Both the position numbers and the translations under genes were made by a program. The notes beneath the pieces were generated by a model. That model was not told where the DNA came from, ran no database searches, and worked only from the letters and a program-made list of their open reading frames with translations. Source: Halorientalis salina (lineage in GTDB: Archaea > Halobacteriota > Halobacteria > Halobacteriales > Haloarculaceae). From it: a DNA stretch of 64,000 nucleotides. Location: positions 1-64,000 of the forward strand of contig NZ_SOSC01000012.1 in NCBI RefSeq assembly GCF_005049285.1. The letters are read 5' to 3'. Shown here in pieces: positions 5,721 through 17,129 of the stretch. The first letter of the stretch is position 1. Each line of letters begins with the position of its first letter.

Positions 5721-7727
5721 TTACCGGAAGACGTCGTTTCGATAATCGATATCGTCTGTGTCCTCGACCAGTTGGCCTGATGGGGCGATTCGGGACTGAG
5801 TCCAGGAGTTGGTCTCTTTGCCCGGGAGTTCTCGGGTCTTGCCACCACGCTCCCGAAGGACGTGAATCGAGGCGATCAGATTACACCATTGGGCATAGGT
5901 AAACGCCACATCGGCGCCCTCCGTCTCGCTTCCGAGGCGGAACGACCCGATCTGGGCGTCCGGACTGACACCCTCCAGGTCGGTGCCGTTAGAAACGATT
6001 TCTAAGGAAAGTCGCTTTTCGTGGTGTGTAGCGTACGACGGGCGAGGTTTCGCACTCGTCGGGAAGTCAAGGTCCGCAACGGACTCGGCCGCAACGTCAG
6101 TCTCCGGGAGTACGTTGTTGTCTATCCATTCGATATCCGGGTCCGGGCCTCTGAGGCTTATCTCGATACGGGTGTAGTCATCGTACAAGCTCGTTTTTAC
6201 GAACCCCTTGCCGGGGACCATCACCGACTCCAGGTCCTGTATGGCGGTGAGATTAGCCAGCAAGTTGTCGATCTCCTCCCCCGTAAACCAGATGTACCCA
6301 CCGTAATTCCGTCCGAAGTTGAACAAGAGAGTATCCGTCTCTCGGTAGTAGTCGACCAGTAATTCCACGTAGCCCGTTTCCATCTCGTGCTGGCTTGCGA
6401 CCGAGCCCTCCAGCACATAGATGCGACTGCCGGACTTCTCCACCTCTTCGGTGAGTTCCGAGAGTGGCTCGCGGGTCTCCGCTTGTGCGTCAAGCGTGTC
6501 GGGTACCTGCCAGGGGTTCTCAGTCAAGACATCTTGGGCGTAGGCGATCGGGTCGGAGTACTTGAGCCGGTCTGCTTCTTCCTCCGTGATATATGGAGAG
6601 ACAACCTCCCCGATCTCAGACGGAAACCGATCACCATAGCCAGTTTTCCGTTGTTGGTGTGTCTCCATGTATCCGTCATACGCGGGGACACGGTCGGTTG
6701 GTGTTCTGCAAATCTCGCTGTGGCCGTCCTCAGTGACGAGTATGATCCCGACATCCGCGAGGTCGGAATTGCCCTCAACTAACTCCGTCGCCCGCTCTTC
6801 GAGGCTCGCAGGAACGGCAAGGTAGAGCTGTGAGACCGTCTCCGTCTGCAAGAATTGGGTCAGCTGCTCGTGAACAGACGTTGGCGAGAACGAGCCTTCG
6901 CCTTTGGCCTCGACGCCAATGATCTTGTTCTCCTCGGGGTGTTCGAGTGCGTCGGTTGGGTTCCTACTTCCTTCGAAGGCGATCAGATCGATTGGCCGGT
7001 ACGGTTGATCCGAGCTGAGTGTGTTCGGGATATGTCCCTCCGGGATACCGCCCAGCGACTGCCAGATGGAGTGTTGAATCCAAGGCTCTTCGCGACGGGC
7101 GAACGTCACCCCACCAGCACTCTCGAGAGGCGCCCCGTCGTGGGTAATCTCCGGCGTGGGGGCGTCCATAGCCCCTAGAAGGTCATATGGTTCGACGTCC
7201 GGCACATGAATCACACCGACCTCCGGGAACGAGACCGCTCGAGAGATACGCTGTACCGCCTCATCCAATGGGATGGGGCCTTTGCTGGAGAGAAATAGCG
7301 TCACATAGTCCAAGACGGTTTGGCTCCCGATTTTCTGGTTCAGTATCTCATCGGGGAGTGCTTGTTCGATCGCTGAGCGGGCCTCTTCTTCGGTGTAGTG
7401 TCCAGCGTTGATCGCCCCTGCCATCCGTTTTCGAACTTGACTCAGTTCGTTGACGTCGAATGATGTCGTATCAGTCGTATCGAGTTCGGCGGCCGAGGCG
7501 ATGAAGAGCCGATCGAGTTTCCCACTCTCAACGTATCGGTGGAGCTGTTCGGTCCGATAAGCGCCCGTCTTGACTTCGATACCCCACAGCTCCCCGTTAT
7601 CCGTTTCCGCGACGAGGTCGATCCGTCCGGTCCCGAGCTCCACCTCCGCATCAACCGTCATCCCCTTGTCCCGCTCGAGCCAGTCCCATACCCGCTGGCG
7701 GAGTAGTTCCTCGCCGAATTCAGCCAT
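5721..7727 (-). CDS. Protein with two PD-(D/E)XK nuclease-like motifs
   Basis: The 668-residue protein starts MAEFGEELLRQRVWDWLERD. The first domain has the core D37 (GRIDLVAE) then E51-V-K53 (WGIEVKTG), typical of PD-(D/E)XK enzymes. A second similar core occurs at about 247-275: PIDLIAF, then GVEAKGE (E273-A-K275), followed by a helix and the strand QLYLAVP. The remaining 350 residues are soluble and unassigned. No methylase or helicase gene lies beside it, so a classical restriction system is unlikely without remote partners. A DNA-cleaving defence or plasmid-competition role is inferred. A TATA-type box (CTTAAATA on the minus strand, 7749-7756) lies 22 bases before the ATG, which implies a nearly leaderless mRNA. 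Confidence 0.7.
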   Translation of the reverse strand: MAEFGEELLRQRVWDWLERDKGMTVDAEVELGTGRIDLVAETDNGELWGIEVKTGAYRTEQLHRYVESGKLDRLFIASAAELDTTDTTSFDVNELSQVRKRMAGAINAGHYTEEEARSAIEQALPDEILNQKIGSQTVLDYVTLFLSSKGPIPLDEAVQRISRAVSFPEVGVIHVPDVEPYDLLGAMDAPTPEITHDGAPLESAGGVTFARREEPWIQHSIWQSLGGIPEGHIPNTLSSDQPYRPIDLIAFEGSRNPTDALEHPEENKIIGVEAKGEGSFSPTSVHEQLTQFLQTETVSQLYLAVPASLEERATELVEGNSDLADVGIILVTEDGHSEICRTPTDRVPAYDGYMETHQQRKTGYGDRFPSEIGEVVSPYITEEEADRLKYSDPIAYAQDVLTENPWQVPDTLDAQAETREPLSELTEEVEKSGSRIYVLEGSVASQHEMETGYVELLVDYYRETDTLLFNFGRNYGGYIWFTGEEIDNLLANLTAIQDLESVMVPGKGFVKTSLYDDYTRIEISLRGPDPDIEWIDNNVLPETDVAAESVADLDFPTSAKPRPSYATHHEKRLSLEIVSNGTDLEGVSPDAQIGSFRLGSETEGADVAFTYAQWCNLIASIHVLRERGGKTRELPGKETNSWTQSRIAPSGQLVEDTDDIDYRNDVFR

Positions 7728-8757: not shown

Positions 8758-8807
8758 GGAAAGACACCCCATCGAGACTGGCGTCGGGCTTGCAGGAGCT
8801 CGCTGCC

Positions 8808-8849
8808 TTAACCAACGAACCTCGACGCTACTCGCAGGGTGTTGGTTAA
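8808..8849. repeat. TTAACCAAC inverted repeat, copy 1
   Basis: TTAACCAAC (8808-8816) and GTTGGTTAA (8841-8849) are perfect inverted repeats with a 24-base spacer. Identical arms occur at 19661-19702 and 34804-34844 with 24- and 23-base spacers, while the spacer sequences differ. Each copy lies 10-21 bases past the stop codon of one minus-strand gene and 80-150 bases before the start of the next. It is therefore either an operator pair three helical turns apart or a shared 3' end structure. Confidence 0.75.
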
Positions 8850-8868
8850 TCGACGCCCAGCACTGGCG

Positions 8869-9750
8869 CTACTCGAGACTGGGTCCGTAGCGAGCCGATC
8901 CACACACCCGGCACTCCCAGATCGGTTGCCCCGTCCACGCCTCATCCGGGACCGACTCGTGGGTCTTGAACCGATGGTCGGTCGCCCGTCCACAGGTTTG
9001 ACAGTCGAGTTCCTGAGTCGTCGGTACCGACGACACCTGGCGATCAGCCGCAGCCTCGCCTCTGGATTCGGTCACCGCCATCGCTGGAACCAGCCACACC
9101 GCGTCGTCGGCGTCGTCGAGGACCGCGTCGAGACGCGACGCGTCGCGGATGCCGTCCCCACGCTGGTCGTAGAGCCGCGTCGGGGCCTGCCCCTGCCGCT
9201 CCGACGCTCTCTGCCCGTGCCACCCAGCCCGGTCACGGGCGACACTGAGAAGCCGCTCTCCCTCCTCTGACGACACCTGTACCGCGTCGGGGAGTGAGGG
9301 CCATTGCTCGGCCAGCTGGCGCGCCGGCGCCTCGTCGAGGTCGTAGATGAGCGTGTAGTCGTCGACGGCCGGCTCCGCCTCGTTGGCGGAGAGGAGGTTC
9401 GCCGCGGCGCCGCCCTTCGCGACGGCGCCGTAGAACGTGGTCGACTCGACGACCAGGTGGACGATGCCGAGGCACGTCGTCGACGCTGCCTCGTTCGTGC
9501 TAGTGGCGTCACTCTCGAGATGGTTGCTGAGACAGAACCGGCATTTCGTCTGGCCGTCTGGGACTGAGGCCCCACAGGACCGGCACTCGCCATCGGCGGC
9601 CGTCGGCGCATCAGGGTAGCCACCAGCGCTCGTCGCGACGCGTTGCCGCCGGGGGGCACCCTCACAGCCGTCGTCCAGCCTCGTATCCGGAATGTGGGAC
9701 GCCTCGCCGGTCGGCCGCAGTTCCTCAAAGTCGGAGTAACGACCGTTCAT
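8869..9750 (-). CDS. Two-zinc-ribbon haloarchaeal plasmid-type protein
   Basis: The 293-residue protein starts MNGRYSDFEELRPTGEASHI. A first zinc ribbon (CRSCG...CRFC, about residues 56-74) is followed by a 150-residue alpha/beta domain (LGIVHLVVESTTFYG, DDYTLIYDLDEAPARQLAEQWP). A second ribbon at the C-terminus (CQTCG...WECRVCG, about 250-285) ends the protein. The upstream frame reaches 9771, but the Met at 9750 matches the start I remember from related haloarchaeal sequences. No enzyme motif is visible. It is a common type on haloarchaeal mobile elements and its role is unknown. The TTAACCAAC repeat lies 20 bases past its stop. Confidence 0.65.
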   Translation of the reverse strand: MNGRYSDFEELRPTGEASHIPDTRLDDGCEGAPRRQRVATSAGGYPDAPTAADGECRSCGASVPDGQTKCRFCLSNHLESDATSTNEAASTTCLGIVHLVVESTTFYGAVAKGGAAANLLSANEAEPAVDDYTLIYDLDEAPARQLAEQWPSLPDAVQVSSEEGERLLSVARDRAGWHGQRASERQGQAPTRLYDQRGDGIRDASRLDAVLDDADDAVWLVPAMAVTESRGEAAADRQVSSVPTTQELDCQTCGRATDHRFKTHESVPDEAWTGQPIWECRVCGSARYGPSLE

Positions 9751-9844
9751 AGGGCAGTCTACAGAGAACATGGCTCGTCTTCGTGTTTAAATCGTAGCGT
9801 GGATAGACCGATGTGCAGTACAGACGGAGAGACAGTGGACTGCC

Positions 9845-10771
9845 TCAGGCGACCCGTTCCTCCAACGTATCCTGGTGTGCCCGAACAGTCGCCTTCGAGG
9901 CGTTCGCTACGTCCGCGGCCTCGGATTGCGTCAACCATCGGCCCTCTTCGCGACCGGCCTTGTAGAGGCAGGCCGCGGCGAACCCGGCCGGATGGACGCC
10001 CGTCGTGACGCCGCGCTCCTCGGCCTGTTCCGCGAGGGCTCGGGCCCGCTGTCGGATTTCGTCCGGACACTCGAGGTCCGAGGCGAGGCGCGGCACGAAC
10101 ATGCTGGGGGAGACGGGCTCAGCGGGGAGGCCCAGCTCTTCGTTCAGCGTTTTGTACGCGTTCGTGACTCGTGACTCCGCCACGCGGGCCATCTCGCTGA
10201 CGTCGTCCACCAACCGCGAAAGACCGTTACACCGACAGGCCCCGTAGACGCTGGCCGCGGCGATGGCCTCGATGGACCTGCCACGAAGCAGATCCTCGTT
10301 CTGGGCGCTCCGGAAGAGTTGACACGCTTGGTCGCGGACCGAATCGGAGACCTCGAGGGCACTCGCCAACCGGCGCACCTCGCCCAGCCCGTGTGCGAGA
10401 TTCCGTTCCGCCTTCGACCGCCAGCGCCCACGGGTCTGCTCACGGCGCATCCGCGCGAGTCGCCGTCGCTTCTGCCCCGAGAGTTCGTTCCCCTTCGCGT
10501 CGGTACCGCGACCGATCTCCGTCGACAGGCCGCGATCGTGGCGGGCCGCAGTGAGTGGAGCGCCCGTTCGTTCGCACTCCTCGTCGTCGTACGCCCGCCA
10601 CTCCGGCCCGTGATCGATACGCTGTTCGTTGATGACCAGGCCACAGTCCTCGCAGACCGTTTCGACCGCGTTCGTGGTGACCCGGCCGTCGCACTCGGGA
10701 CACTGGTTCGCACTGGATTCCGTTCGGACGTCTTCGTCGAATCCGCTCTCGTAGATGTCTCTGGTTGCCAT
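9845..10771 (-). CDS. tfb: Transcription initiation factor IIB (accessory TFB)
   Basis: This 308-residue protein has the TFB layout: an N-terminal zinc ribbon (C24/C27 in CPEC and C40/C43 in CEDC), a B-finger/linker with GPEWRAYDDEE and the TGAPLT segment, then two cyclin repeats (about 115-205 and 215-305) rich in Arg. TFB recruits RNA polymerase to TBP-bound promoters. Haloarchaea carry several TFBs, and extra copies on plasmids can redirect transcription. The frame is open to 10864, but MATRDIYESGFDED at 10771 is the typical TFB start and leaves a palindrome (10810-10830) in the leader. It lies beside the Argonaute operon and could serve the element's own unusual T-rich promoters. Confidence 0.9.
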   Translation of the reverse strand: MATRDIYESGFDEDVRTESSANQCPECDGRVTTNAVETVCEDCGLVINEQRIDHGPEWRAYDDEECERTGAPLTAARHDRGLSTEIGRGTDAKGNELSGQKRRRLARMRREQTRGRWRSKAERNLAHGLGEVRRLASALEVSDSVRDQACQLFRSAQNEDLLRGRSIEAIAAASVYGACRCNGLSRLVDDVSEMARVAESRVTNAYKTLNEELGLPAEPVSPSMFVPRLASDLECPDEIRQRARALAEQAEERGVTTGVHPAGFAAACLYKAGREEGRWLTQSEAADVANASKATVRAHQDTLEERVA

Positions 10772-10809
10772 CGTTCTCACCGTGTTCAGGGAACCCGCCA
10801 GTACAGCGA

Positions 10810-10830
10810 GCCCCTCGCCCATTGAGGGGC
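10810..10830 (-). promoter_or_regulatory. Promoter-proximal GC palindrome before tfb
   Basis: Arms GCCCCTC (10810-10816) and GAGGGGC (10824-10830) enclose a 7-base loop reading AATGGGC on the minus strand. A box reading GTTTCTATCG (minus strand) abuts it. It lies 39 bases above the tfb ATG. The tfb gene therefore shares the upstream layout of the surrounding small genes. Confidence 0.5.
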
Positions 10831-10888
10831 CGATAGAAACGGATGGTATCGGTACTCCAGTCAACTAGAACACAATCCAGCTGATGTT

Positions 10889-12307
10889 CTACATATAATG
10901 GTAGTAATGGATGTCCAGACTGGTGTTTTGAGCTTCAGCTTCAGCCAGAATGTTCCCAACGGCATCTGAGATTCCGATTGTAACCGGAAGCTTCGTGCAG
11001 AAATCCGAAGTGTTCCAGTCCAGTTTCGTGAACGCCAGCATTTCTCGGCACAGCTTCTGTGGCGATGAGTCACTGACCTCTGGATCCGGCTTGACCACGA
11101 TCGGCTCCGGGATGTTCGAGGCCGGATACGTCGACAAAGCCGGGATGTACCCCTTCGTGTACAGGTAGTGCTCCTCATTGTTCGGTGCGGAGACCATCGT
11201 GCCTCGAAGCGCCGGATAAATCCCGGAACTCAAGGCCCGGACTGGGTGCCGCTCTCGGACCGTGACGAAGTCCATCAACTCGATGTTCCCGGCACCTTTG
11301 ATGAAGCCCTCTCGCTCCTCTTCCCAGAACTCCGACCGCTTGTGAAGCACCAGTCGTCGCGGCTCAGTCTTTTTGTGGCTACGGTAGTGCCTGAGAATCT
11401 TCTTTACCAGTTGCTTGGCGTCGTCTTCTGCGAGGTGGTTGTTCCCTGGGCCGTGCTTCTCTCCTTCGACGGGGTCGCCTCGAAGGATGAAGTTCTCCCC
11501 TGTCTCCAGGAAGACTTGGGCCATAGCTGTCCGTGTCCGGGATTGGTCTCCGCCTCGCTCTTTGTAGAAGGATATCCCGGCGAAGCACGTTCCGTCCTCC
11601 AGATCGGTTAGTTTCCAGGGATGGCCGCGTTGCGCCTTGTACAGTGTTTCAACCGCGATGTTCCATGCGATCTCGGACTTGTCCTGGACGCCCTCACCGC
11701 GGAGGGTCTTCGGCTGCATCAGCTGCGTCGGCAACCCGACTTCCATCCCTAGCAGCTTGATCCGGTTGTGGAAGTCGCTGGTCTCTGACTGCATCCGGGC
11801 ATGGTCCTGGTGGGATGGAGTGCATGCGTCCCACATCGCTTCTGGAATCGCGATGAACACGACGTCAGGCGGCGTTTCCTTGGCGTACAGGACTTCAAGG
11901 TTGATCTTGATGATCTCGACCGCTTCTTCCAACCGGTCTTTCCGGCTGCGGATTTGTTTCAGGTCCCGGATCTCGCCTCGAGTAATCGTCTGCCGCCACC
12001 GCTTCTGCGTGTTGAACGTGAAGTTCAGCGGCGACCGTTCGCCGAGGCCGGGGAACGGTGGTTTCCACCGCTTCGACTTGTCCTCGTCGGCGGTGATCGC
12101 CAGCTCCATGTCCTTGAACAGTTTTTCGAGGCCGCCGAGAGACCGGCCAGACCCGATGTATCCGACGTTGATTACCTGGTGTTCGGATTTGCCGGATGGA
12201 GTTCTTGGTCCGTATTTCATCAATCCGACTCGGGGGTCGATGGAGTCCTCGCCGTCAGCGAACATCAAGCCGGGTTCGTCGAGGACTTCGGCGGTGAACT
12301 CGTTCAT
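10889..12307 (-). CDS. Short prokaryotic Argonaute (MID-PIWI, inactive type)
   Basis: From the ATG at 12307 the protein has 472 residues, the usual length of short pAgos that hold only MID and PIWI domains. Family landmarks are FAGISFYKERG (about 242-252), RRLVLHKRSEFWEEEREGF (about 317-335), SSGIYPALRGTM (360-371) and FTKLDWNTSDF (426-436). The first PIWI strand reads GISFY with no catalytic Asp, so guide-directed cleavage is not expected. Such proteins use a guide to sense invader nucleic acid and switch on a partner effector. The start overlaps the stop of the nuclease-APAZ gene in ATGA (12304-12307), so the two are translated together. An upstream in-frame extension to 12454 lies inside the partner gene and is rejected. 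Confidence 0.88.
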   Translation of the reverse strand: MNEFTAEVLDEPGLMFADGEDSIDPRVGLMKYGPRTPSGKSEHQVINVGYIGSGRSLGGLEKLFKDMELAITADEDKSKRWKPPFPGLGERSPLNFTFNTQKRWRQTITRGEIRDLKQIRSRKDRLEEAVEIIKINLEVLYAKETPPDVVFIAIPEAMWDACTPSHQDHARMQSETSDFHNRIKLLGMEVGLPTQLMQPKTLRGEGVQDKSEIAWNIAVETLYKAQRGHPWKLTDLEDGTCFAGISFYKERGGDQSRTRTAMAQVFLETGENFILRGDPVEGEKHGPGNNHLAEDDAKQLVKKILRHYRSHKKTEPRRLVLHKRSEFWEEEREGFIKGAGNIELMDFVTVRERHPVRALSSGIYPALRGTMVSAPNNEEHYLYTKGYIPALSTYPASNIPEPIVVKPDPEVSDSSPQKLCREMLAFTKLDWNTSDFCTKLPVTIGISDAVGNILAEAEAQNTSLDIHYYHYM

Positions 12308-13692
12308 TGGAAATCTCCTAACCACTTGTTCTGCATGGTGCCGTCCCGTTCGTCGGTGTCTTTGGGCGGCCTTTTGTTGACTTCGAGCATCACGGGTTCT
12401 GTCCCGATGTCCAGATCGTCCTGTTTGGGGTTGCCGTAGTCCAGGATTTTCCACCAGTGGTTGATCCGACTCCGTGTTTTCCGGTTGTTCCCGTGTCGGC
12501 TGGGGCTGAACCTGTCGTGTAACGGTTTGGCTTGTTCCCCGGTGATCCGGTTTTCTTTCCCGTTGGTGGTGAACAGGATAGCTGGTTTCAGGGTGAGGAA
12601 GTACTGTCCCGAGTATTCGAGGATGCCGATACGGAGTGAGTGGTGGCGGAAGAAGGGTGATTCGGCCTCATCGTAGTGTTTTGTGACCTGTCGCCCCTCT
12701 TCTTTCCGGACCTCCGCTTCGGGGTCTTCGTGTGGGAAGTACAGGTGGTAGTCGTTACGGTAGTTTATCGCGATGCAGCCACGGTCTTCACCCTTGGAGA
12801 GGACAACGGCCCGAATCAGCCGTTTCCCAATATCGGCGTTCCCTTGGTCGGCTTCTACCCACGACCGGAACCCGGTCTCCTCGACCGTGTCCGGGTCAAT
12901 GAACTGTTTGACCGCTCTCGGCATTTCCTCCGGCGGTAACAGGCTATACACCTTGTTCGACTTGAACCACGTCGGTACCGTGAATGGGCGTAGCTTGAAT
13001 GCAACCTCTTGTGTCGCGCCCTCCACCTGGTCTCCGATGTACAGAGTTTCAGGGTACTCTGTTATCTCGACGAGGTTGGTGGTCAGCTCTGACCTGTCGG
13101 TGATGGGTTCGGCTTCACGCTGGAAGAAGTCGGGTTTGAACCGGTCGTCTTTCTCGAACTCCTCGATCTTCATCAAGAGCGAGTCGTAGTCGGCCTGGTA
13201 GACGTGGGTGTCACTCAGGAACTCCTCGAAATCGTCCATCGAATAGCTCTTAATCTTCTGTCGATGCTCGTCCGAGAGTTTGTCGTTCTCGCAGACCCGG
13301 TCGTAGAACTCCTGGATTGCCTCGTCGGTCTGCTTGGTGACGTCGAAAATCTTCTGCCACTCTTTGAAGTTCTCGAGGTTCCGCCCGAAGATGGCCACGT
13401 CGAACCGTTTCTCAGGAGACCGGTCCATGTAGTGGAGGAAGTACTTCCCCATCTCCTCGAGGAATTTCTTCCCGTGACGGCGCTGGTCTGTCCACTTGAG
13501 CTCGACCCAGACCTCTCGGTCACCCCTGATCTCTGGGAGTTCGTATTTCTGGTCGACAAGCCCGCCATGGGTGGGCGATGTTTCCGTGATGTAGTATCCC
13601 ATCGCCTCCATGTACTCCTGGACCTTGTCACCGTAGATCTCCGAGTTTTTAGCGAGGGCCTCGCGTTCGCCTAGGAGGTTGGTGAGGGCCAC
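12304..13692 (-). CDS. PD-(D/E)XK nuclease-APAZ partner of short Argonaute (SPARDA-like)
   Basis: This 462-residue protein starts at a GTG (13690-13692). The N-terminal 110 residues form a restriction-type fold: helix (YGDKVQEYMEAMGYYI), D47 in GLVDQKYE, then E64-L-K66 (EVWVELKWTD) and a helix, i.e. a PD-(D/E)XK active site. A helical linker follows. The last 260 residues (LRPFTVPTWFKSNKVYSLLP onward) fit the position and size of an APAZ domain, which holds short Argonautes. In SPARDA systems the DREN-type nuclease cuts DNA and RNA without specificity once the Argonaute binds a target. The same is inferred here. The assignment to SPARDA rests on layout and motifs, not on an alignment. Confidence 0.75.
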   Translation of the reverse strand: MALTNLLGEREALAKNSEIYGDKVQEYMEAMGYYITETSPTHGGLVDQKYELPEIRGDREVWVELKWTDQRRHGKKFLEEMGKYFLHYMDRSPEKRFDVAIFGRNLENFKEWQKIFDVTKQTDEAIQEFYDRVCENDKLSDEHRQKIKSYSMDDFEEFLSDTHVYQADYDSLLMKIEEFEKDDRFKPDFFQREAEPITDRSELTTNLVEITEYPETLYIGDQVEGATQEVAFKLRPFTVPTWFKSNKVYSLLPPEEMPRAVKQFIDPDTVEETGFRSWVEADQGNADIGKRLIRAVVLSKGEDRGCIAINYRNDYHLYFPHEDPEAEVRKEEGRQVTKHYDEAESPFFRHHSLRIGILEYSGQYFLTLKPAILFTTNGKENRITGEQAKPLHDRFSPSRHGNNRKTRSRINHWWKILDYGNPKQDDLDIGTEPVMLEVNKRPPKDTDERDGTMQNKWLGDFQ

Positions 13693-13857
13693 GTTATGCC
13701 GAACCTCACAATGGAGTACCTAAATCATTTCGTCGCAGTGAACGGTCCGGATTCAGGCCGAGAATTGGATGCCTGGCCACGGTTTTGGGAGTTCCTGATT
13801 CAGATTCACTGTTTTCAATACAGTAATTAGAGGTGGTGCTGTTAGCCTCGAATAAGC

Positions 13858-14727
13858 ATGACCTCTACACTGAGCGTAGGTGAGGTAACGGCCCTTCTCT
13901 TGGACGAGAGATTCTACTCGAACCCGTTACGCCCCAAAACCTTCTATAAACTACTCTACTTCGCAGACAAGGAACTCAACGACGTCGGATTGGACACGGA
14001 TATCCAGCACTTCTGGTACAAGTTCGGAACCATGGCGAAGACCGGTGGATCCCCAGTCACGGTAGACTGGAGTGACGATAGCCGAGAAGTCCGTTGTAGC
14101 CTTTCAGCTTCTCAGCTCAGCCTCCCCAGGGAGGAAGAGACAAAGGCTCGACTCGCACTCTCTCGAGCACTCAACCGTCTGTACGAACAAAATACGGAGG
14201 GGCTGACCGATGACATGTACGAGGACGCGCCTTACGATGTTCAACGCCACTACCGACGACTCGACAAACAGCTCAGTGACGCTATCGACGACAAACCAGA
14301 TTACCCCGAAGTAGACTCCAGCAGGGAAGCAGTCATCAACACGGTCTTCGATATCATCGATACCTTCCCAGTCGACGACTACCCGTGGCTGGAGCAGGAC
14401 TTGGATCTCTGGTACTCGGTTGTAAGTGCTGAACTTGATGCCGAAGAGTACCGGCCGCAGAAGGCCCTGAAGGTCTCTGAATTGTTCTGGACCATCTTCT
14501 GCATCGACCTCGCCCAACGCGAAAACACCGGGTTGACCCCCGAAGAGATCGCCGAGGAACTAGACACGGAGGACCTCGAAGGCCGACAAGAGGATATCCG
14601 GAAGGAACTCGAACTGATAGAGCGAGAACGCTCCCGGCTACACACAGACTTGGAAGAGAACCAAGTAGTGTCCGAAGCCGCTGACGGGGTTGCAATCGCC
14701 CTCCTCGGTCTCTCACCCGCCCCCTAA
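13858..14727 (+). CDS. Panacea/SocA-like antitoxin candidate
   Basis: The 289-residue protein has near its N-terminus LRPKTFYKLLYFADKELNDV then TDIQHFWYKFGTMAKT. This resembles the start of the Panacea (SocA-like, DUF4065-type) domain, whose hallmark is a K-L-x-Y helix followed by a YGP-like turn, here YKFGT. The middle is helical, and the C-terminal 60 residues are a charged coiled coil (GRQEDIRKELELIERERSRLHT). Panacea domains are chaperone-like antitoxins paired with unrelated toxins. The next gene, 12 bases on, is a PIN-domain ribonuclease candidate. The pair is transcribed away from the Argonaute operon, with a 165-base divergent promoter region between them. Confidence 0.55.
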   Translation: MTSTLSVGEVTALLLDERFYSNPLRPKTFYKLLYFADKELNDVGLDTDIQHFWYKFGTMAKTGGSPVTVDWSDDSREVRCSLSASQLSLPREEETKARLALSRALNRLYEQNTEGLTDDMYEDAPYDVQRHYRRLDKQLSDAIDDKPDYPEVDSSREAVINTVFDIIDTFPVDDYPWLEQDLDLWYSVVSAELDAEEYRPQKALKVSELFWTIFCIDLAQRENTGLTPEEIAEELDTEDLEGRQEDIRKELELIERERSRLHTDLEENQVVSEAADGVAIALLGLSPAP

Positions 14728-14739
14728 CCAACCCCCTCC

Positions 14740-15516
14740 ATGACCCGGTACTTCGTAGACACCAACTGCCTGCTCGGACTCACCTTCATCAAGGACCGGT
14801 GGTACCCTGACGCCAAACGATTGTTCGACACCGACAACACGATCTACACCGGGAAGAACGCCGTCTACGAGTACTGTTCCAGCACCGAGGACAACAGTCG
14901 GCGTTCCGCCGACATCCGGTTAGACCGGGACGAAGGCCTGTACGGGGAGAAACGGGCGAAGCTCCGGTTGAAACTGAGGCAGTTCGGGAAGATGCTGCAA
15001 ACCTACAGTGACGACGAGCTCGATATTGAGACGGTGATGGACGAGTACGTCGAGCGGTTCGACATGAAGGAGTCCGAGGAGAAGGAGGTGCGGCCTCGGC
15101 TCCAGAAGTACTTTGAGTGGTACTTCGAGAAGGAGGGCGAGCTCACTCGGCGGACAGCTCGGGAAGCTGCTCGGAAGCTGAAGGACGTCTTGATGGAGCG
15201 GTCGATCAAGCACAAGGACCAGATCGAGGCCCGTGTCTATCTGGAACCGATGCGAGACCGCGAGTATCCCGACGTTGAGAAGCGGTTGAAGGAATGGCCG
15301 GTCCATATGAAGAACAGTGCGGATATCGCGCTGATCTGTGACGCCGTGTTCCTGAAGGAGGAAATCGGTATCAGCCACTTCGTGACCGGCGACTTCACGG
15401 ACATCTACTCGAATCAGGACTGGATCCATGAGAACCTCGGGTTCAGCGTGCTGTACTTGCTGGAGACGTTCGCGGGTGAGGAAACACCGACCGCCTCAAT
15501 AGACTTGGGCAATTAG
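14740..15516 (+). CDS. PIN-domain ribonuclease, toxin candidate
   Basis: The 258-residue protein starts MTRYFVDTNCLLGLTF, with the first PIN acid D7 and N9. A distal PIN block reads NSADIALICDAVF and HFVTGDFTDIYSN, supplying further Asp residues (GDFTD matches the usual TxDxxD). Between them lies a helical insert of about 130 residues (60-190), so the protein is twice the length of a VapC toxin (about 130). The expected activity is metal-dependent RNA cleavage. It follows the Panacea-like gene by 12 bases, probably as one operon. It could instead be a stand-alone RNase linked to the neighbouring Argonaute system. Confidence 0.6.
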   Translation: MTRYFVDTNCLLGLTFIKDRWYPDAKRLFDTDNTIYTGKNAVYEYCSSTEDNSRRSADIRLDRDEGLYGEKRAKLRLKLRQFGKMLQTYSDDELDIETVMDEYVERFDMKESEEKEVRPRLQKYFEWYFEKEGELTRRTAREAARKLKDVLMERSIKHKDQIEARVYLEPMRDREYPDVEKRLKEWPVHMKNSADIALICDAVFLKEEIGISHFVTGDFTDIYSNQDWIHENLGFSVLYLLETFAGEETPTASIDLGN

Positions 15517-15644
15517 AGTTGTACATAAATCGAATCCTATAATGTCAATTTAACATCAAGTTCTCTAGGTCGTGGCTGCGCGCGCAGCGAAGCGAGCACG
15601 GAGCGGAGGGTGGGGCGGCGGGGTCAGGGTCGGTCCGGCACACA

Positions 15645-15658
15645 CCAAAAAAGAAGGG
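15645..15658 (-). terminator. T-rich terminator after the RPA-like gene
   Basis: On the minus strand CTTCTTTTTTGG includes six T (complement of A at 15647-15652), 13-20 bases past the stop of the OB-fold gene. T-tracts are the normal intrinsic termination signal in archaea. Confidence 0.5.
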
Positions 15659-15670
15659 CGACGTGCTCGC

Positions 15671-16537
15671 CTACTCTTCCCACCACCGACCGCGCTCTGG
15701 GAATTCGATCCTGCTCCAGCCCGTGATGGCGATGCTGCACCGCCCCTGGTACCAGTTCTTCTTGACGGCCCGGAACCGGACCGTCTCACCTTCGCCCACG
15801 ACCGTCTTCCGAGAGGCCTCCCAGATCGTGAACTTGATCTTCCCACTGTCGTCCTCGATCAACCCGACCTGCGAAATCGAGGTATCACTCGGATCCCAGA
15901 GTTGCGTGATTTCACCCTCGACCGTCACCTCACCGACCGGGACGTCCGGCACGTCCGCGATGGGCACGATCGCCCCCGGCGCCGCCTTCAACTCCTCGAG
16001 GGTCTCCAGCACCGCCTTCGTGACGTCCCGCCTGCGCTGCACCTTCTCGGCCAGCTGCTTCGCGACGACCGCTCTCGACCAGCCGCCCTGCACTTCGTCG
16101 CTGATCCGCATTGCCTGCTCGTTGACCTCCGCGAGTTCCTCTTGCGTCAGCTTCTCTCGGGGATCCGTGCGCTCCGACGGCGCCGGCTCGTCACGACCAC
16201 ACTGCTCGCTGACGACCTCTCGCGTGCGCTGCTCACGACCGTCCTGCGTTCCCAGCTCGGCCTGGGCACTGATGCGCTCCAGTTCGGCTTCCCGCGCCCG
16301 AATGCGCTCCTCCTGTTCGAGGGTGACACCGTGAATCCGATCCTGGCTCGTGTCCGCGATCCCGTCTGGGTGGTTCGCATCCACCTTCGCTTGGGTCTCC
16401 TGCTCGACCGCCGCCTCGAACTCCGGCGTCTCGTCGACGACCGGGAAGCCGTCTTCATCGACCGCCTGACCGCCCGCTTTCTCGAATGCCTGTTCATCGA
16501 CCGAAACGACCTTTCCGCTAGCGTTGTTACTAGACAT
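15671..16537 (-). CDS. RPA-like OB-fold single-stranded DNA-binding protein
   Basis: The 288-residue protein starts MSSNNASGKVVSVDEQAFEK. Residues 1-175 are acidic and helical. Residues about 190-280 form an OB fold: GEVTVEGEITQLWDP, ISQVGLIEDDSGKIKFTIWE, GETVRFRAVKKNWYQGRCSIAITG. This matches the DNA-binding domain of archaeal RPA. It may protect single-stranded DNA during plasmid replication or transfer. The frame extends to 16633, but those residues lie across tandem hairpins (16538-16603), so the ATG at 16537 is chosen. The T-tract terminator downstream and the large inverted repeat upstream make it a separate unit, possibly beside an origin. Confidence 0.7.
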   Translation of the reverse strand: MSSNNASGKVVSVDEQAFEKAGGQAVDEDGFPVVDETPEFEAAVEQETQAKVDANHPDGIADTSQDRIHGVTLEQEERIRAREAELERISAQAELGTQDGREQRTREVVSEQCGRDEPAPSERTDPREKLTQEELAEVNEQAMRISDEVQGGWSRAVVAKQLAEKVQRRRDVTKAVLETLEELKAAPGAIVPIADVPDVPVGEVTVEGEITQLWDPSDTSISQVGLIEDDSGKIKFTIWEASRKTVVGEGETVRFRAVKKNWYQGRCSIAITGWSRIEFPERGRWWEE

Positions 16538-16603
16538 TGGTATCACACCAAGATACCACTGAAGGCGCTCACGCGCCGACTCCGCGATGCTCCAACATCG
16601 CGG
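16538..16603 (-). promoter_or_regulatory. Three tandem hairpins in the leader of the RPA-like gene
   Basis: Directly before the ATG lie three perfect inverted repeats: TGGTATC/GATACCA (16538-16544 and 16552-16558, 7-base loop), GGCGC/GCGCC (16564-16577, 4-base loop) and CCGCGATG/CATCGCGG (16582-16589 and 16596-16603, 6-base loop). In RNA the first would hide the start region, so control of translation by structure or by binding of the OB-fold product is possible. Confidence 0.5.
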
Positions 16604-16635
16604 TTTTCCGACGATAACGACCGACAGAACCATCT

Positions 16636-16691
16636 GCGCGCTCTCGCTCGCGCCTTCGCGAGCGCCCTACCGGGCGCGAGCGAGAGCGCGC
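16636..16691. repeat. 19-bp perfect inverted repeat, possible cruciform or origin element
   Basis: A 19-base arm (16636-16654, made of GCGCG, CTCTCGCTCG and CGCC) is repeated inverted without mismatch at 16673-16691, with an 18-base spacer. The left arm can also fold locally with the spacer as GCTCGCG/CGCGAGC. It lies 100 bases upstream of the RPA-like gene at the edge of a 430-base non-coding GC-rich block. Such elements occur at plasmid origins and transfer sites, but no replication gene other than the RPA-like protein is close. Confidence 0.6.
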
Positions 16692-17129
16692 CTGCATGAG
16701 GTGGCCCCAACCAGCACCGCGCGCCGACCCGCCCGGAGCGAGCGGCCAGCGGAGTAAGCGTGGGGGGTGAGCAGCCACGCCGCGCAACCCCTCGCGCTTA
16801 CCCGCTGGCGCCGAGGGCACATGCACTTTAGCCCGGAACGGGCGCGGGCGGTGCGGAGAGCGCCCGCACGCCCGGAATGGTCGGTCGCGAGCGACGCGGA
16901 GGGCGGCAGCGGCGAGCGGGGCGGGCCGATACGTACACACCTGTCCAGCCGGCCGCATCGCTCGGTGAGCCATCTACAGTCCTGGTGGACTCAGAAAGGG
17001 CGAGGCCGCCTCGGCCGTCCCCCGACCCCGCAAGCACCGCAGTCACGAGGCGCGCAGCGGTGGTCTCGGGACGTCGAGCGGCCGAGGGCTTTCGAGGGTC
17101 CTCTCCCACCGAATCAGACTAGCACTCAG
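16692..17129. other. GC-rich non-coding block containing a large imperfect hairpin
   Basis: No frame here has convincing coding character. Positions 16987-17101 start with GGACTCAGAAAG and end with CTTTCGAGGGTCC, which pair imperfectly, and inner segments (CTCGGCCG near 17010, CGGCCGAG near 17080) continue the stem. I remember similar AAAGGGCGAGGC...GGGCTTTCGAGG stretches recurring in haloarchaeal genomes, which would make it a dispersed palindromic repeat or a structured RNA. That memory is not verified here. Confidence 0.4.

Follow-up and report, generated by a model that had tools for sequence, protein, structure and literature searches.

A short-Argonaute locus of Halorientalis salina and other haloarchaea: a probable four-gene, two-operon defence cassette

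Results

Two divergent gene pairs at the short-Argonaute locus

We analysed a 64,000-nucleotide stretch of the Halorientalis salina contig NZ_SOSC01000012.1 (the window), which carries a putative defence locus built around a short prokaryotic Argonaute (pAgo). On the minus strand, a 462-amino-acid (aa) nuclease-APAZ effector (12304–13692) precedes the 472-aa short pAgo (10889–12307), and the two genes are coupled by a 4-base ATGA stop–start overlap (12304–12307, minus strand), present in the sequence as the initial annotation had described it. Two further genes lie on the plus strand, one for a 289-aa protein that we term SocA-like (13858–14727; possibly a divergent Panacea-type antitoxin or regulator) and one for a 258-aa PIN-like protein (14740–15516). 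The 165 bp separating the two operons (13693–13857), presumed to be the promoter region, show 86% mean column identity when the window is aligned with eight close relatives. While the locus had at first been described as a two-gene system, the SocA-like/PIN pair adjoins the effector at all 34 effector loci found in the class Halobacteria, and we propose that the whole is probably a four-gene, two-operon haloarchaeal defence cassette.

Coupling of effector and pAgo is widespread: their genes overlap by 1–17 bases at 29 of 35 loci and are separated by 1–4 bases at the other six, in a count that relies on script-chosen starts and includes the window's own genome as well as one duplicated contig. 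The four genes also appear to move together (10887–15507). In blastn searches with window positions 8801–17000 (E 1e-20), the sole block shared with Haloferax marisrubri (L001) spans 10887–15507 at 88.1% identity and the sole block shared with Halorarius halobius (L002) spans 10889–15494 at 89.6%, in both cases corresponding to the four-gene stretch. Other close copies have a longer part of the queried region in common with the window.

A short Argonaute with a broken catalytic tetrad

The 472-aa protein matched the PADLOC model pAgo_I (E 1.1e-144) and, in the PDB, ten chains of short pAgos at 1.6e-70 to 1e-22, the closest being 9om4_B (1.6e-70), 9qbp_B, 9qbl_B and 9jsb_A (2.9e-60), followed by other short pAgos (8ifk_B at 2.7e-40 and weaker). 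Far beyond chance, these similarities identify it as a short pAgo with a MID-PIWI architecture and no PAZ domain, which bears out the earlier assignment from sequence motifs; the motifs quoted at the time are indeed present. The closest PDB Argonautes have partner chains labelled HNH endonuclease, DUF4365 protein and DREN-APAZ.

Alignment with 11 haloarchaeal Piwi loci encoding long pAgos (L120 is unaligned in these stretches and L119 lacks the end) places S246 in the first catalytic Asp column (GxD; D in 10 of the 11 long-pAgo rows), R324 in the third (RDG; D in 9 of 11, with G in L121) and D430 in the fourth (H in 8 of 11), these columns being what we take to be the catalytic tetrad positions. 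Among 17 aligned short-pAgo relatives, position 246 is invariably S, 324 is S, R, T or P but never D, and 430 is D throughout. Because S246 and R324 replace the first and third Asp, the DEDX tetrad is broken at both positions and the Argonaute is predicted to be inactive; absence of the first Asp had already been remarked on.

Residues implicated in guide binding are largely preserved. K184, K224 and N216 are invariant in all 17 relatives and Q208 occurs in 16; mapped by hand on the alignment, the former three correspond to K187, K240 and N232 of NbaAgo, which contact the guide (PMC12205087), and this invariance makes binding of a 5′-phosphate RNA guide plausible. The position of NbaAgo R183 is not fully kept (R in nine, H in eight of the 17). 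We take 9jsb to be NbaSPARDA, although the structure file does not name it, because its chain has the residues given in the available portion of PMC12205087 at the right numbers.

An effector combining an APAZ half with a PD-(D/E)XK-like N-terminus

Near its full length, the effector matched the PADLOC model Aga_REase_Archaea (PDLC02417; E 2.4e-169; profile 1–414 of 416, protein 28–460), and it matched APAZ-containing (PNTD1-PNTD2) models of the same collection at 5.7e-19 and weaker. While a single-sequence PDB search found no relative, a family profile of 20 relatives recovered the partner chains 9qbl_A, 9qbq_A, 9jsb_D, 9qbp_A and 9om4_A (4.4e-14 to 9.5e-11), over the APAZ part only. By hhalign, the effector family aligned with five bacterial DUF4365-APAZ plasmid proteins over 402 columns (99.0% probability, E 7.4e-18). 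Such profile matches assign the C-terminal part to APAZ (approximately residues 187–455; 12328–13134, minus strand; borders approximate), where a region of suitable size had been pointed out beforehand.

The N-terminal part (approximately residues 1–120; 13333–13692, minus strand; border approximate) contains the E64-L-K66 core recognised in the initial annotation: all 20 aligned effectors share E11, D47, E64 and K66 without exception, at 39% mean column identity. In the hhalign comparison, E64 and K66 align with bacterial Q61 and K63, and D47 falls one column off D40, the haloarchaeal E-x-K contrasting with Q-x-K in all five bacterial DUF4365 partners examined. No DUF4365 match was among the Pfam matches of the effector family, whose best Pfam nuclease hint was Mrr_cat (0.25, in one of 20 members). 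We conclude from motif, position and conservation that the N-terminal part is PD-(D/E)XK-like; membership of DREN is not thereby shown, and the effector need not be DREN, as had been cautioned, given its E-x-K and an N-terminal domain without significant similarity. What does hold is the SPARDA-like plan suspected from the outset, that is, a short pAgo with a nuclease-APAZ partner whose APAZ half is homologous and whose D...ExK core is N-terminal to APAZ.

The SocA-like/PIN pair is tied to short-pAgo systems

Our 34 effector loci come from 33 of the class genomes searched (the window, L060–L091 and L099). Both pair families lie beside the effector at every one of them, with gaps below 400 bases, and the association persists with effectors down to 23–35% identity. 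A pAgo, or a piece of one, is found at 32 of the 34 loci, the exceptions being L068, where the contig ends, and L099, where no pAgo was found, only the N-terminal part of the effector remains and the SocA-like gene is split in two. The PIN gene of L069 runs off the contig, and core genes are interrupted at L080 and L084. Where effector or pAgo is interrupted or truncated (L080, L084 and L099), the PIN gene is still present, and two of these three loci also keep an intact SocA-like gene.

Searching the same 391 genomes for the pair itself, we obtained strong matches (SocA-like profile <1e-48, PIN profile <1e-38) in exactly the 33 effector genomes plus two more, G288 and G102. The latter encode, beside the pair, a short pAgo (Piwi 5.8e-15 and 1.8e-16; PADLOC pAgo 1.2e-59 and 1.6e-70), a protein weakly matching the N-terminal region of class II pAgo (5.2e-4 and 1.8e-4) and a protein whose C-terminal part has three or two hydrophobic segments. 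Wherever both families were strongly matched, 35 genomes in all, genes of a short-pAgo system lie next to the pair, and the pAgo itself was seen in 33. At the two Aga-type loci, L093 (4120–9521) and L094 (4441–9903), genes for the SocA-like, PIN, N-region, short-pAgo and hydrophobic-C-terminus proteins stand in one run, a layout that suggests an Aga1/Aga2-like pAgo system equipped with the same SocA-PIN module.

No comparable fifth component emerged: among 882 stop-to-stop open reading frames (ORFs) from the flanks, the most widespread other family reached four of 15 non-redundant loci (blastp 1e-6, ORFs of at least 90 aa within ~7 kb, a search less sensitive than the profile searches for the core genes). 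Distance matrices of the four genes correlate (r 0.87–0.96, Mantel p 0.0002) across 15 loci, a comparison that left out the cut or broken loci L068, L069, L080 and L084.

Family assignments of the SocA-like and PIN-like proteins

Pfam PIN matched 11 of 18 members of the 258-aa family (E up to 1, best 9.9e-5), and the family keeps D7 (17/18), E44 (17/18), D195 (18/18) and D218 (18/18), presumably the PIN active-site acids.

The 289-aa family is clearly related to SocA-like proteins of other haloarchaeal loci (hhalign 99.7%, E 1.5e-26). Among the Pfam families listed for its 18 members (25 of 26 shown), PF13274 did not appear; it was reported at 0.11 for one of three distant relatives. Pooled relatives reached 42% (E 2.6e-4) in hhalign against five haloarchaeal Panacea proteins, a reference set with one member below the Pfam cut-off and two trimmed by hand, and four unrelated alignments gave 0.44–0.73. 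We regard the Panacea similarity as no more than suggestive. An identification of the protein as DUF4065/Panacea, first guessed by eye, went unsupported by Pfam, PADLOC, NCBIfam and PDB profiles. HTH_23 was matched in two of the 18 members (best 0.015), and no confident DNA-binding domain was found.

Distant relatives of the pair occur elsewhere

Weaker SocA-like matches in the 391 genomes led us to fetch 24 further places, of which eight helped build the pooled profiles and so match by construction. The pooled SocA-like profile recovers 23 of the 24, and a PIN-like gene adjoins 20 (12 of the 16 outside the profile-building set). Three PIWI profiles, two of which recover the L093/L094 pAgos that had helped build them, detected no pAgo in the 24 stretches. 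The occurrence of related pairs without pAgo favours an autonomous core of toxin–antitoxin (TA) type over a pure guide factory; the association of this particular SocA-PIN branch with short-pAgo systems, in turn, speaks against a mere hitchhiker.

Some of the distant pairs lie beside other defence genes, namely Hma-type genes (L096, L098 and L125, the last assigned by similarity to the L096/L098 proteins rather than by PADLOC) or DrmA of DISARM (L102 and L103). The remaining 19 places were not counted near Hma or DISARM, L137 having a 30% match to the helicase marker; six proteins served as markers, so other defence genes may be missed.

Distribution, phylogeny and mobility

PDLC02417 matched 33 of 391 Halobacteria-class genomes (22 of 86 genera) and 17 of 392 phylum genomes, ten of the latter being among the 33, with the control Methanosarcina acetivorans positive. 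Effector relatives were also found on 19 plasmid records, all haloarchaeal by name and three of them at 91.8–98.7% identity. Given these numbers, the system is not rare in haloarchaea, and the earlier expectation that it would be unusual there does not stand, all the more as a PADLOC model already exists. Plasmids are a frequent location of relatives, and several genera have near-identical copies.

In a tree of 34 pAgos, a 100/99 branch separates the archaeal rows, together with one viral-contig row, from the bacterial DUF4365 and SMEK groups. Haloarchaeal pAgos form several deep lineages that are not cleanly resolved (66/93) from the viral-contig row or from L058 and L092, which belong to one non-haloarchaeal family that we labelled Methanosarcina-type by guess. 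A viral collection contributed three pAgo loci (L043–L045) and no other match. One of its contigs encodes an effector–pAgo pair of the same family (L043, 4598–7431; pAgo 46% identical), with no SocA-PIN in the stretch examined; phage records gave no effector match. On plasmid pHLAC01 of Halorubrum lacusprofundi, an orphan pAgo (L055, 4001–5425) nested in the haloarchaeal group has no effector or SocA-PIN and adjoins DUF499 and methyltransferase genes.

Three prokaryotic Argonautes were noted in this haloarchaeon, H. lacusprofundi, in 2009 (PMC2743648). A survey of 656 haloarchaeal species recorded ago genes in 63, and since the PIWI domains it describes consistently have DEDX, it seems, in its available portion, not to cover the short pAgos considered here (PMC11442185).

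Genes flanking the cassette

Window positions 1–25000 resemble many haloarchaeal plasmids (primase-associated protein, TFIIB family), the best match being a Halobaculum halobium plasmid (60% cover, 93% identity), and the 82.9-kb contig carrying the cassette is probably itself a plasmid. Just downstream of the pAgo lies a TFIIB-family (TFB) gene (9845–10768), found in the same place in most close copies and beside none of the distant cassettes. The product of 8869–9771 matches the NCBIfam family 'biosurfactant protein 1' (NF051898) above cut-off (2.2e-138). We rejected the TFB gene, an OB-fold gene and the gene at 8869 as cassette members, as they accompany the cassette only in some close copies. 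Farther away, the 668-aa product of 5721–7727 gives weak PD-(D/E)XK-type hits close to the N-terminus (best 0.0017) and is possibly a further nuclease near the cassette.

Discussion

The core of the locus is almost certainly SPARDA-like, judging by sequence and profile comparisons, and it is highly likely that all four genes work as one functional unit. Homology strongly suggests that the inactive short pAgo pairs with the nuclease-APAZ protein as a heterodimer. Following the model of NbaSPARDA (PMC12205087), the pAgo, loaded with a 5′-phosphorylated RNA guide, would sense complementary invader DNA and thereby activate the PD-(D/E)XK-like N-terminal domain for non-specific nucleic acid degradation. 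Such collateral degradation might clear the invader or stop the cell. For the divergent pair, the role we favour is one in which the SocA-like protein would restrain the PIN ribonuclease, with the resulting TA module guarding or backing up the pAgo system. We put the chance that the SocA-PIN module acts as a TA-type guard, or as a second abortive effector of that kind, at about even. The TA reading draws on the conserved PIN-like acids, on the gene order (SocA-like first, PIN second) and on the 20 of 24 distant places with a PIN neighbour and no pAgo. The view of the pair as a dedicated part of the cassette draws on its complete linkage to the effector, the limited spread of every other flank family, the correlated distances and the four-gene blocks.

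Several observations weigh against this interpretation. As to the identity of the components, the window's PIN-like protein stays below the Pfam PIN cut-off (0.086) and its family has no PDB match; for the 289-aa family, Pfam, NCBIfam, PADLOC and the PDB offered nothing credible; compared alone, this family scores 5% (E 0.0078) against Panacea, and the structural model of the SocA-like protein is poor (three-row alignment, mean pLDDT 50.3). The N-terminal 130 residues of the effector, taken alone, reach 0.3% (E 0.22) against bacterial DREN in hhalign, and the effector model from a four-row alignment is likewise poor (mean pLDDT 40.7); its N-terminal order of helix 17–30, strand 33–38, strand 61–65, helix 70–89 and strand 99–104 is compatible with a PD-(D/E)XK core but is no proof of one at this confidence. 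As to linkage, correlated distances reflect joint inheritance, not contact. Outside the class, where seven genomes were positive, neither pair gene was found at the three loci extended (L058, L059 and L092), and the orphan H. lacusprofundi pAgo likewise has neither beside it, so the pair is not needed for every such system. PIN-gene remnants also occur at L104 (4340–4735; PIN profile 6.0e-32, with an internal stop) and L105 (8377–8637; 1.6e-19), in stretches without SocA-like, effector or pAgo genes.

The strongest competing explanation, which we nonetheless consider unlikely, is an ordinary two-gene SPARDA-like system joined by an independent TA module, with the linkage reflecting joint transfer and plasmid addiction rather than functional contact. 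Plasmids commonly carry TA genes and are often where relatives reside, near-identical copies occur in several genera, and distant SocA-PIN pairs do exist without pAgo. Yet simple co-transfer fits poorly with an identical arrangement at 34 of 34 loci over such effector divergence, with flanks in which no other family exceeds four of 15 loci, and with a pair that, when strongly matched, has short-pAgo system genes at its side in 35 of 35 genomes.

Slightly less likely again, the SocA-like protein might mainly regulate transcription from the divergent promoter, with PIN as an RNase tuning expression of the effector operon; the divergent arrangement and the spacer conserved among close relatives would suit such a role, but the sporadic HTH_23 hits provide no confident DNA-binding domain.

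We find it improbable that the PIN protein is a guide factory that cuts transcripts into short RNAs for loading into pAgo, with the SocA-like protein regulating or delivering it. This would account for a conserved PIN-like gene tied to two short-pAgo architectures in haloarchaea and for the correlation between PIN and pAgo distances (r 0.90). Against it stand the related pairs that 20 of 24 distant places carry, where the fetched stretches showed no pAgo, and the absence of the pair from the three extended relatives outside the class; its profiles likewise found nothing at nine bacterial plasmid loci (~2 kb of flank only) or at the viral-contig loci L043–L045. Equally improbable is the wider version, a guide-producing or licensing unit in which PIN makes or quality-controls RNA guides and the SocA-like protein keeps PIN off until infection. 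If true, a single plug-in would serve nuclease-APAZ and Aga1/Aga2-like pAgo systems, with related plug-ins beside Hma and DISARM. That the effector N-terminus is a different or dead PD-(D/E)XK domain and the system works without collateral cleavage is very improbable: the DREN comparison and the lone Mrr_cat hint would allow it, but D47, E64, K66 and E11 are invariant at 39% mean column identity.

Returning to the SPARDA-like cassette with its proposed TA-type module, we compared it with described systems. It resembles NbaSPARDA (PMC12205087, as far as its available portion shows) in the short inactive pAgo, the effector gene upstream, the APAZ homologous by profile, the guide-contact residues and a PD-(D/E)XK-type motif. 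It differs from NbaSPARDA and other SPARDA in having E-x-K instead of Q-x-K, an N-terminal domain that is not significantly similar and two extra conserved genes, and its pAgo clade is separate from the sampled bacterial DUF4365 and SMEK groups. L093 and L094 are like the SiAgo-Aga1-Aga2 and AfAgo operons (PMC10954474, PMC11705971) in layout, whereas the window locus has a nuclease-APAZ effector instead. Perhaps the cassette effector belongs to the archaeal APAZ 'group III' of Ryazansky 2018, 18 archaeal APAZ proteins without other domain (PMC6299218); the window's family carries a conserved nuclease-like N-terminal part, and if the two are the same, the 'no other domain' statement would need correction.

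In their two-gene order with a candidate toxin, and in a K-L-x-Y ... Y-x-x-G(P) resemblance seen in relatives, the plus-strand genes recall Panacea-type TA pairs (PMC10440598), though homology of the SocA-like family is only suggestive. A TA module guarding a defence system has a CRISPR precedent in CreTA of haloarchaeal CRISPR-Cas; there, the module consists of two RNAs, with repression acting through the CRISPR effector, whereas both components here are proteins (PMC9458426, PMC8501985).

What was already known is a SPARDA-like archaeal system with a PADLOC model; what had been overlooked is the two-gene SocA-PIN module, which no PADLOC model matches. The cassette is not described in the available text of PMC4158269, PMC10544981, PMC11442185 and PMC12477606, though an earlier description may exist elsewhere, and that of PMC6299218 does not mention the pair. 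Nuclease-APAZ short-pAgo systems are described, in the portions of the literature available, as two-protein heterodimers. If the SocA-PIN module is integral to them in haloarchaea, it would offer a handle on two questions believed open, namely where short-pAgo guides originate and how the cell controls a self-destructive nuclease or punishes its loss. A module shared by two pAgo effectors, and with distant relatives next to Hma and DISARM genes, would count as a reusable accessory of immunity in archaea, and genetically tractable haloarchaea would gain a native SPARDA-like system working at high salt.

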